Assembly: GCF_004362015.1 (NCBI RefSeq)
Contig: NZ_SNWW01000009.1
Location: 62,001 to 126,000, forward strand
Origin: Flavobacterium chryseum
GTDB lineage: Bacteria > Bacteroidota > Bacteroidia > Flavobacteriales > Flavobacteriaceae
Length of the DNA: 64,000 nucleotides
Direction: 5' to 3'
The first letter of the stretch is position 1. The number at the start of each line of letters is the position of its first letter. Below are positions 30,736 through 33,233 of this stretch, in pieces. A program made the translations under genes and the position numbers. The notes beneath the pieces are model-generated. The model did no database searches. It had not been told where the DNA came from and saw only the letters and a list, made by a program, of their open reading frames with translations.

Positions 30736-31215
30736 TTACATATTTTTAAAAATAGTATGCATCAAACGCTTCTTATCGTTTATACTTTCTTCTAATGAAA
30801 TCATTGTTTCTGTTCTGTAAACGCCTTCAATATCGTCAATCATGAAAATAACTTCTTTTGCGTGTTTAGTATCTTTTGCTCTGATTTTGCAAAAAATATT
30901 AAACTTTCCTGTTGTTACTGAAGCTACAGTTACGAACGGAATTTGATTGATTCTCTCTAATACAAATTTTGTTTGAGACGTATTATTAAGGAATACACCT
31001 ACATAAGCAATAAATGAATACCCTAATTTATCGTAATCTAAGGCTAGTGATGATCCCATTATGATTCCGGCATCCTCCATTTTTTTTACTCTAACATGTA
31101 CTGTTCCAGCAGATATCAATAATTTTTTTGCTATGTCAGTAAACGGAACTCGCGTATTGTCTATTAACATATCTAAAATCTGGTGATCTACTTCATCTAA
31201 ACGAAATTTACTCAT
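30736..31215 (-). CDS. Lrp/AsnC family transcriptional regulator
   Basis: A 159-residue leucine-responsive-type regulator. N-terminal helix-turn-helix (LDEVDHQILDMLIDNTRVPFTDIAKKLLISAGTVHVRVKKMEDAG, about 6-50) followed by a RAM ligand-binding domain (about 70-150). It lies upstream of ppc on the same strand. The regulated genes and the effector (probably an amino acid) are not shown by the sequence. Confidence 0.92.
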   Translation of the reverse strand: MSKFRLDEVDHQILDMLIDNTRVPFTDIAKKLLISAGTVHVRVKKMEDAGIIMGSSLALDYDKLGYSFIAYVGVFLNNTSQTKFVLERINQIPFVTVASVTTGKFNIFCKIRAKDTKHAKEVIFMIDDIEGVYRTETMISLEESINDKKRLMHTIFKNM

Positions 31216-31292: not shown

Positions 31293-32447
31293 TTAACTTT
31301 TTGTCAATCCGTTAACAAATTTAACATTTTTATTTAAATAAAAATCTGCTTTTTGATTCAATTTCGGAAAATTGGTATCGTCATCTGAGTAACTGGCTCC
31401 TTGCCCGTCATATTCAAAATGTCCAAAATAATTTTCCAATTCGCCTACTTCAACTATATAAGCGTTGAACTGAATCTCATTTTCAATCAATTCTTCTTTG
31501 TATTGTGCGACAAAATTCGTAATAATTTCGATACCATCATAATTTATTTTGATGTTTTTATACATAAAATCATAAAAAACAGCTTTATTTTGTGAAATAT
31601 TCAAATAATCATTAATTCGATTATCAACTAAATCGTTTTCGGAAAGTAGTTTGAAACTTGAAATTAGTGAGAAAAATATGAACTTTCTGGTAATTTCCCT
31701 TTGATAATCGTTAGGAAAGTGACCTGCTTCAAACAAAATTGTCGGAACTCCCAGAAACTGAAATGTATCTCCTATACAATTAATATTAAAAGAATCATCA
31801 AATCGACCTACCTGACCCGGAATATAGTGTTGTAAAACATCGTTGAGTCCTGCAATAAGGTTTATTGCCTTTAATCTATTATCATTAATAGCTCTTTCTT
31901 CATTATAAGATGGTGCTAAAAACGAAACTGTTGCTGGTTTACCTGTCTCTCCTGCACCAAAAATAGTACGCTGATCGTGCAGGTTAAAGCAATAATGAGG
32001 TTTGAAAGTTTCGAATACGTTTCTTAAAACATTACTCTCGGGTTGCGTCAGGTTTTGAGAATCACGGTTTAGGTCTATCTTATTGGCATTTTCACGCGTA
32101 TATAGTGCTGCTCCATCAGGATTTAATATCGGAATTGCATAAAAAGTAAAGGTTTCAAGCATTTTAGCTGCAAAATCAGAACCGCTGTTTAAGACATTAA
32201 TGAAATCAAACAATGCCTTAGTGGTTGTGCTTTCGTTTCCGTGCATTTGAGACCACAAATAGACACGCGTTTCTCCTGTACCAATTTGATAACTATATAT
32301 AGGTTTATCTAAAACAGATTTGCCAATAATATTTATTTGATTATTAGTATTTAATTTATCTAATAATGGCTGAATATGATCTAAAGTCAAATAACGACCT
32401 GTAATAGATTGCTCTTTGTATTGGCTAAATAATTCTTCTAAATTCAT
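31293..32447 (-). CDS. M14 family zinc carboxypeptidase
   Basis: A 384-residue metallocarboxypeptidase-type protein. Zinc ligands H69 and E72 (MHGNES) and H157 (NLHDQR), a substrate-binding Arg in IDLNRDSQ (about 128) and catalytic Glu240 (LFEAGHF) are all in place, so it should be active on a peptide C-terminus or on an amide. No signal peptide, so it is cytosolic unless exported otherwise. It is divergent from an XRE regulator; the intervening 312 bases hold multiple operator-like palindromes, three of them on this gene's side. Confidence 0.88.
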   Translation of the reverse strand: MNLEELFSQYKEQSITGRYLTLDHIQPLLDKLNTNNQINIIGKSVLDKPIYSYQIGTGETRVYLWSQMHGNESTTTKALFDFINVLNSGSDFAAKMLETFTFYAIPILNPDGAALYTRENANKIDLNRDSQNLTQPESNVLRNVFETFKPHYCFNLHDQRTIFGAGETGKPATVSFLAPSYNEERAINDNRLKAINLIAGLNDVLQHYIPGQVGRFDDSFNINCIGDTFQFLGVPTILFEAGHFPNDYQREITRKFIFFSLISSFKLLSENDLVDNRINDYLNISQNKAVFYDFMYKNIKINYDGIEIITNFVAQYKEELIENEIQFNAYIVEVGELENYFGHFEYDGQGASYSDDDTNFPKLNQKADFYLNKNVKFVNGLTKS

Positions 32448-32759
32448 TGTATTTCGATTAGTTTACAAAAGTAAACATCTTTATTTTTACAATTGTAAAC
32501 AATTAAAAAACGCCATAATTTATAAATGTAAACAGGTTTTAAAGCTTAAAATCAATATTTGAATACCTTTGAGTTAACAATTGTTATCATTGTTAACATA
32601 CTTAGTTAAATTATTAAAAATCAACTAATTAAACTGAGTTACTTATAGTGATTTTAGCTAAAATATCACCTTTAAAACGAGATTCACAACTGTAAAATTG
32701 TTTATTCTATTTCTTTTAGTTACATTTGTAAACACATAAATTTAGAAACATAATTTACA
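32448..32759. promoter_or_regulatory. Divergent control region with operator array
   Basis: It holds sites of the form TTTAC-N4-GTAAA at 32461-32476 (GTTTACAAAAGTAAAC, perfect), 32485-32500, 32518-32533 (one mismatch) and 32718-32733 (one mismatch); a fifth at 32753-32768 covers the XRE start codon. A separate 9-bp palindrome lies at 32573-32597. -7 elements overlap the sites: TACTTTTG on the minus strand (32473-32466, for the peptidase) and TACATTTG (32721-32728, for the regulator, with TTG at 32698-32700). Confidence 0.75.
32573..32597. promoter_or_regulatory. Perfect 9-bp inverted repeat of a different type
   Basis: GTTAACAAT and ATTGTTAAC are separated by 7 bases, midway between the two divergent promoters. 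The motif differs from the flanking TTTAC-N4-GTAAA sites, so a second regulator may bind here. Confidence 0.55.
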
Positions 32760-33233
32760 ATGGTAAACATAGATGATTTTGTGAAAAGGCTTGAAATAAT
32801 CCTTGATTATTATGGTTTAAATGCCTCCTCTTTTGCCGATAAAATTGGTGTACAGCGATCGAGTATGTCTCACCTGCTTTCTGGCAGAAACAAACCGAGT
32901 CTTGATTTTGTACTAAAAATTCTGGATGTTTTTCCGGATGTAGATCTCTATTGGATTTTAAATGGCAAGGGAAGTTTTCCTAAAAATGAAGAAACTACTA
33001 TTTCAAAAATTGAAGAAACTGTAGCAATTGAAAAATCTTCTGCTCCTATTTTGTCAAATGAAAATATTATTTCATCTGATTTATTTTCTGAAATTAATCA
33101 GCCCAAAAATGAAAGTTCAGAAACAAGAACATTCTCTGAACCAAAAAATTCAAATTTTAGTTCAGAAGAAAGTGAAATTGAAAAAATTGTGTTTTTTTAT
33201 AAAAACGGAACATTTAAGGTATATAATCCTTGA
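32760..33233 (+). CDS. XRE-type helix-turn-helix regulator
   Basis: A 157-residue regulator. Residues 5-65 form a Cro/CI-like domain (LNASSFADKIGVQRSSMSHLLSGRNKPSLDFVLKILDVF). The remainder is a Ser/Asn/Glu-rich linker ending in a short ordered C-terminus (EIEKIVFFYKNGTFKVYNP). No peptidase (LexA-type) domain. Its start codon lies inside a TTTAC-N4-GTAAA site and another site covers its -7 element, a strong sign of autorepression; the same motif controls the divergent M14 gene. Confidence 0.88.
   Translation: MVNIDDFVKRLEIILDYYGLNASSFADKIGVQRSSMSHLLSGRNKPSLDFVLKILDVFPDVDLYWILNGKGSFPKNEETTISKIEETVAIEKSSAPILSNENIISSDLFSEINQPKNESSETRTFSEPKNSNFSSEESEIEKIVFFYKNGTFKVYNP

Follow-up and report, generated by a model that had tools for sequence, protein, structure and literature searches.

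The 312-bp intergenic region that separates the divergent XRE and M14 genes of Flavobacterium chryseum carries a cluster of predicted operators, and the XRE protein is likely to repress, locally, its own gene and the M14 gene through those that overlap the two -7 elements and the XRE start codon. This reading comes from the comparison of sequences. The window is the whole 64,000-nucleotide stretch of DNA that was analyzed, and positions are counted from its first letter. An earlier note on this DNA had described five sites of the form TTTAC-N4-GTAAA, three on the peptidase side and two at the regulator. All five were confirmed in their places, three as exact copies (S1, S2, S5) and two with 1 mismatch each (S3, S4); the count of five missed a weaker sixth site (S6). 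In the list below, mismatches are scored against GTTTAC-N4-GTAAAC and the conservation of the arm columns is taken from 86 aligned distinct sequences.

31293..32447, minus strand: M14 zinc carboxypeptidase gene, 384 aa (Pfam Peptidase_M14, E 2.2e-11)
32461-32476, no strand: S1, predicted operator, GTTTACAAAAGTAAAC; 0 mismatches; arms 99.8%
32485-32500, no strand: S2, predicted operator, TTTTACAATTGTAAAC; 1 mismatch; arms 99.1%
32518-32533, no strand: S3, predicted operator, ATTTATAAATGTAAAC; 2 mismatches; arms 92.3%
32613..32655, no strand: central AT-rich element between both operator clusters; consensus TTTTTCAGTTATTTAA-N5-TTTATTTAAAGT (from the window aligned with 28 other-genus loci)
32682-32697, no strand: S6, weaker sixth predicted operator, ATTCACAACTGTAAAA; 3 mismatches; arms 86.2%
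32718-32733, no strand: S4, predicted operator, AGTTACATTTGTAAAC; 2 mismatches; arms 93.3%
32753-32768, no strand: S5, predicted operator, ATTTACAATGGTAAAC; 1 mismatch; arms 99.7%; spans the XRE ATG at 32760
32760..33233, plus strand: XRE/HTH_3 regulator gene, 157 aa (Pfam HTH_3, E 1.4e-06)

The Bacteroidetes-type -7 element is TAnnTTTG, refined to TAHHTTTG in F. johnsoniae (PMC6847099, PMC9723704). Since TACATTTGTA coincides in part with this sigma-A element, some of the sites are at the same time parts of a promoter. Inside S1 lies the -7 element of the peptidase, TACTTTTG (32473-32466, minus strand), and inside S4 that of the regulator, TACATTTG (32721-32728); these placements, as well as that of the start codon in S5, had been given correctly before. 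S2 overlaps a TTG (32492-32490, minus strand) at about the expected place of the peptidase -33 element, and this TTG may well be that promoter element. The positions of the -7 elements would place the transcription start of the peptidase gene near 32461 and that of the regulator gene near 32733. The right arm of S5 forms codons 2-3 of XRE (Val-Asn; Ile-Asn in many relatives). The central AT-rich element is weakly conserved in the genus and better in the family alignment; in the genus alignment, columns 32607-32655 are 67% conserved, as compared to 61% for the other non-site columns. A related palindrome, GTTAACAATTGTTATC, is found in the middle of the region at 32573-32588 and occurs in L037 as well. 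No Rfam match to an RNA element was obtained within 32300-32900 up to E 1. An Lrp/AsnC regulator gene (30736-31215) adjoins the M14 gene; its identity in the neighborhood loci where it was seen is 94-100%, higher than that of the neighboring genes.

The intergenic region holds 1, 3 and 5 sites at up to 0, 1 and 2 mismatches, respectively, against means of 0, 0.003 and 0.062 and maxima of 0, 1 and 2 in 1000 dinucleotide-preserving shuffles. Of the 10 places that match with 2 mismatches or fewer in the 64-kb window, 5 fall inside the 308-bp stretch of sites. A scan of the 5.01-Mb genome for GTTTAC-N4-GTAAAC, as the earlier note had proposed, gave a single exact match, S1. Fourteen other places in the genome differ by 1 mismatch, 13 of which are inside open reading frames (at least 60 aa) and one is non-coding, with no open reading frame start within 400 bp. 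The paired-site pattern (TTTAC-N4-GTAAA, 2-32 bases, NTTAH-N4-GTAAA) is present in this genome only at the XRE-M14 locus (control 0). Looser searches were less specific: allowing 3 mismatches gives only a mild excess over the window (62 vs 42.2 expected), the 14-mer with 2 mismatches shows no clear enrichment there (118 vs 101; 9 of 100 shuffles reach 118), and in the genome search the reversed-pattern control outscored the pattern (33 vs 17). Global enrichment of the loose motif was rejected as evidence because it is weak and because the genome search fell below this control; the signal lies in clustering and conservation, not in the bare count. In its clustered form the motif is not equally frequent in unrelated regions, and the single exact 16-mer, together with the confinement of the paired-site pattern to this place in its own genome, supports, at the level of sequence, a dedicated and essentially one-locus circuit for XRE and M14, as had been proposed.

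The layout had been called unusual, which did not hold: at least three sites (up to 2 mismatches) occur in 131 of 131 distinct XRE-M14 regions, 103 of them from Flavobacterium and close records and 28 from 25 other genera, the latter being the best-scoring profile matches and not a random draw. The loci were drawn from 80 kept of 541 confirmed and from searches of further genomes; 150 were entered, and 18 duplicates and 1 locus lacking M14 were dropped. The intergenic length is 298-314 bp in the genus (median 312, n=103) and 289-414 bp in the other genera (median 311.5, n=28). Site offsets from the XRE ATG are nearly fixed in the genus, at -299/-298, -275/-274, -242/-241, -78/-77, -42/-41 and -7. 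At offset -7, S5 is found with up to 2 mismatches in all 103 genus loci and in 20 of 28 loci of other genera; the position of S4 (-42/-41) holds a site in 86/103 and 16/28, and that of S6 (-78/-77, up to 2 mismatches) in only 44/103 and 7/28, respectively. A pair of sites 24 bp apart is present in 102/103 and 24/28. Site columns are 91.4% conserved, compared to 62.5% elsewhere, in the alignment of 86 distinct sequences (from 95 kept of 116 loci, the 116 including 6 of another kind), a level that six randomly placed 16-bp windows reached in 5 of 20,000 draws. A de novo dyad search that covered 15 of the 28 loci of other genera returned TTACA-N2-TGTAA 40 times and TTTAC-N4-GTAAA 22 times, the best dyad in 20 shuffles reaching 6. 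A neighbor-gene comparison of the genus loci revealed the XRE locus as a syntenic chromosomal neighborhood throughout the genus. F. johnsoniae also possesses the locus (L066).

In all 29 family loci (one of them Flavobacterium) M14 is divergent and at least three sites are present. Among 20 regions of more divergent XREs, 18 have M14 divergent, with XREs that are 30-51% identical; all 18 keep at least two sites, in shifted positions. Of the remaining two regions, one belongs to a paralogue and lacks sites, and the other, at the end of a contig, has a single site. The XRE profile A2 (25 rows) matches 240 of 249 sampled Flavobacteriaceae genomes in 196 of 202 genera (E up to 0.001; some possibly paralogues), 143 of 196 genomes of the order sample (genus and family members included), and 31 of 119 class-sample genomes (E up to 1e-12), this last count indicating that the XRE family is patchy outside the order. 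Orthology by neighborhood was checked for the named loci only, the profile counts resting on sequence match.

Some XRE match is present in 112 of 150 genomes of the genus, and the XRE-less set comprises 44 genomes without an orthologue-level match (38 with no match, 6 with weak matches), 28 of which have a completeness of 90% or more and a contamination of no more than 5%. M14 is present in all 44 and, as it stays where XRE was lost, it is likely to have an XRE-independent role. No site (up to 2 mismatches) occurs in the 450 bp before M14 in 26 of 30 XRE-less loci. Residual sites are found in L117 (one, decayed), L118 (two) and L143 (one, chance-like), and L119 has one site in a 62%-complete genome whose contig ends 38 bp upstream, so that the absence of XRE there is uncertain. 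An acyltransferase gene on the same strand precedes M14 within 300 bp in 20 of the 30 loci and at 344-1347 bp in 8, and was not seen before M14 in 2; TAHHTTTG occurs in the last 60 bp before M14 in 16 of the 30. The paired-site pattern is found at the XRE locus in 34 of 36 XRE-bearing genomes (two lack it), with only four places elsewhere (G036, G075, G077, G114), and in 4 of the 44 genomes without an XRE orthologue, in none of them at M14. As 11 of the 80 genomes also had a match to the reversed pattern, used as the control, the few off-locus matches are regarded as background. Two genomes without an XRE orthologue have other repeats, G002 (C1, C14, C57) arrays of TTTACCGCGGTAAA and G026 (C4) a pair of TTTACCGTGGTAAA and CTTACCGTGGTAAA, which might serve some other regulator as operators. 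On a tree of 79 M14 proteins, made by a quick method, the presence of XRE has to change 6 times, with at least 4 of the changes on well-supported branches. In the independent loss pairs the sites follow XRE in three and show no difference in one (p 0.25, few pairs), a result that is only suggestive of the sites following XRE.

Loci outside the family point in the same direction. In the 365 bp before XRE, TTAC-N4-GTAA occurs 35 times in 20 order-level loci, where shuffles give 0.35 on average (maximum 3) and the remainder of the loci would predict 1.1; 18 of the 20 have at least one copy. The 14 class-level loci together have 23 copies, where shuffles give 0.2 on average (maximum 2) and the remainder of the loci would predict 0.55; 8 of the 14 have at least one copy and it is absent before XRE in 6. 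M14 is divergent in 16 of the 20 order-level loci, with gaps of 231-840 bp in 7 and 1148-1623 bp in 9, and another open reading frame lies between XRE and M14 in the four of these that were inspected (L211, L213, L216, L217); in L211, L213 and L216 (family f4) a gene located between the two encodes what looks by eye like a TerC-like membrane protein. M14 was not detected around any of the 14 class-level XRE relatives, in stretches of about 1-2 kb per side. Since TTAC-N4-GTAA is enriched before distant XREs with no M14 detected, the motif travels with XRE and not with the peptidase. Clustering, conservation and co-occurrence with XRE support an array of putative operators common to the divergent XRE and M14 genes, and the earlier observation is right and stronger than stated.

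The HTH_3 domain of XRE scores 28.7 bits (curated cut-off 23), and 25 of 25 members match it at E up to 0.1. The protein consists of the HTH part (about residues 1-70), a variable linker (about 77-138) that is predicted to be disordered, and a conserved C-terminal beta-hairpin (143-155). The AlphaFold2 model has a mean pLDDT of 67, with about 82 for the hairpin. Residues I143, F146, Y147, K148, G150, T151, F152 and K153 are invariant in the 17 rows of alignment A1. No S24 or other convincing Pfam effector domain was found in the 25 members at E up to 0.1, and Phage_CI_repr scores 20 bits on XRE, narrowly below its cut-off of 22. The HTH part is matched by regulators in PHROGs (best E 5.5e-12), and the fold matches of the HTH include SinR, C.BclI, 434 and DdrO, none with E under 0.001. 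Elsewhere in the same genome (L006 1033-1725, on C3), a 230-aa protein has an HTH weakly matching XRE and, by eye, an S24-like C-terminal part. The M14 domain scores 44.4 bits (cut-off 21.6), and the model of the protein has a carboxypeptidase fold (Foldseek, best E about 1e-10), poorly predicted from about residue 278 on. Residues H69, E72, H157 and E240, which we take to be the zinc and catalytic residues, are invariant in 18 rows.

In the proposed mechanism, XRE would bind the GTTTAC-N4-GTAAAC-like palindromes, presumably as a dimer. On the peptidase side S1 would cover the -7 element and S2 lie approximately at the -33 element, with S3 upstream; on the regulator side S4 would cover the -7 element and S5 the start codon, with S6 upstream. 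Occupied sites would exclude RNA polymerase from both promoters, by which XRE would limit its own synthesis and silence M14; such exclusion fits the overlap of S1 and S4 with the -7 elements and of S5 with the start codon. A signal, perhaps acting via the conserved C-terminal hairpin, would release the repression of M14. Binding, repression rather than activation, the signal, the function of the hairpin and the substrate of the peptidase are what we infer here. Activation is nevertheless conceivable at the same sites: XRE might bind them and activate the peptidase, or activate one of the two genes and repress the other, via S3 and S6, which lie upstream of the core promoters in a possible activator position, and the central AT-rich element may serve a partner. 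We consider this unlikely, as S1 and S4 lie on the -7 elements and S5 on the start codon, and their arms (99.8, 93.3 and 99.7%) are better conserved than those of S3 (92.3%) and S6 (86.2%), which fits the exclusion of RNA polymerase. In addition, M14 persists in XRE-less genomes, where TAHHTTTG (16/30) and the same-strand acyltransferase gene within 300 bp (20/30) precede it, so that XRE is probably not needed for expression of M14.

That a different protein binds the palindromes is very improbable. The candidates would be the neighboring Lrp/AsnC regulator, whose gene is close by and very conserved, or an S24 LexA-like repressor, since in PMC8565304 a Bacteroidetes LexA-like repressor is described to bind TTAC-N5-GTAA in its own promoter. 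The spacing in the present sites is N4 and not N5. The Lrp gene is present in 30 of 30 XRE-less loci, 26 of which have no site, and TTAC-N4-GTAA precedes the XRE relatives in class-level loci with no M14 detected, all of which speaks against a different binding protein. Hardly any weight is given to the reading in which AT-rich sequence has by chance produced several variants of the sigma-A -7 element (TAnnTTTG) and the palindromes are nothing more than these: TACATTTG, inside S4, is indeed the -7 consensus, and XRE-less loci often keep a -7-like element in the absence of the palindrome, but the two arms are both conserved, with offsets that hardly vary, no shuffle has more than 2 sites where 5 are seen, and the exact form occurs once in the genome. 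Repression by XRE at its own operators is the reading retained.

Cro/CI- and SinR-type HTH_3 repressors have clustered palindromic operators and are autoregulated. XRE shares the HTH fold of this class (434 repressor, SinR, DdrO, controller proteins of restriction-modification systems), and by analogy clustered operator use and autoregulation would hold for XRE as well. Unlike these, it shows no known C-terminal effector or oligomerization domain, having a variable linker and a conserved beta-hairpin instead, and its gene is chromosomal and syntenic, not a gene of a phage or mobile element. The description of the layout as a phage-like switch found no support, either for phage origin or for bistability: beyond the HTH matches nothing points to a phage, the gene lies in a syntenic chromosomal neighborhood, and the 25 members show no S24 or other convincing effector domain. 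Bacteroidetes LexA-like S24 repressors likewise have a phage-repressor-like HTH and short palindromes in their own promoter (PMC8565304); the member described there binds TTAC-N5-GTAA, whereas the XRE sites are spaced N4. XRE differs further by a linker predicted to be disordered and a hairpin tail, with no S24 peptidase domain in the 25 members, and, in contrast to the SOS regulon of LexA-like regulators, by a single target locus as judged by the paired-site pattern, with 13 of the 14 other near matches lying in open reading frames.

ImmR-ImmA and DdrO-IrrE are pairs of a repressor and a metallopeptidase, and the XRE regulator gene likewise lies beside a zinc metallopeptidase gene. The peptidase here, however, is of the M14 type and persists without XRE (44 of 44 genomes), and no M14 was detected around XRE relatives in 14 of 14 class-level loci. 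Because each partner occurs without the other, the reading of XRE and M14 as an ImmR-ImmA-type pair was lowered. The M14 protein has a weak similarity to the murein peptide amidase MpaA (M14; NCBIfam PRK10602; E 3.2e-06), but scores 26 bits against a cut-off of 157.

A full-text literature search found no published description of the XRE-M14 pair, of the regulator, or of the 16-mer GTTTACATTTGTAAAC; among the published systems encountered, the Bacteroidetes LexA-like family comes closest. The kind of circuit, an autoregulated divergent repressor, is ordinary; the family is strikingly conserved and, as far as literature searches reach, undescribed. We tentatively suggest, with some doubt, that XRE is an ancient class-wide autoregulator that has kept its TTAC-N4-GTAA array since before the Flavobacteriales and to which M14 was recruited later, forming a near one-locus sensor whose signal would be read by the IVxFYxDGTF hairpin. 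We know of no other regulator in which a short hairpin of this type is the sensor segment. At the start of the gene, the predicted operator also encodes the first amino acids of the regulator itself (Met-Val/Ile-Asn). The array offers a ready-made operator for testing, and the conserved C-terminal segment one whose signal can be sought. The Flavobacteriaceae are a major environmental and fish-associated family, and the XRE regulators, matched in most of its sampled genomes and accompanied by the same target and operators in all 28 other-genus loci, are strong candidates for one of its basic points of control.
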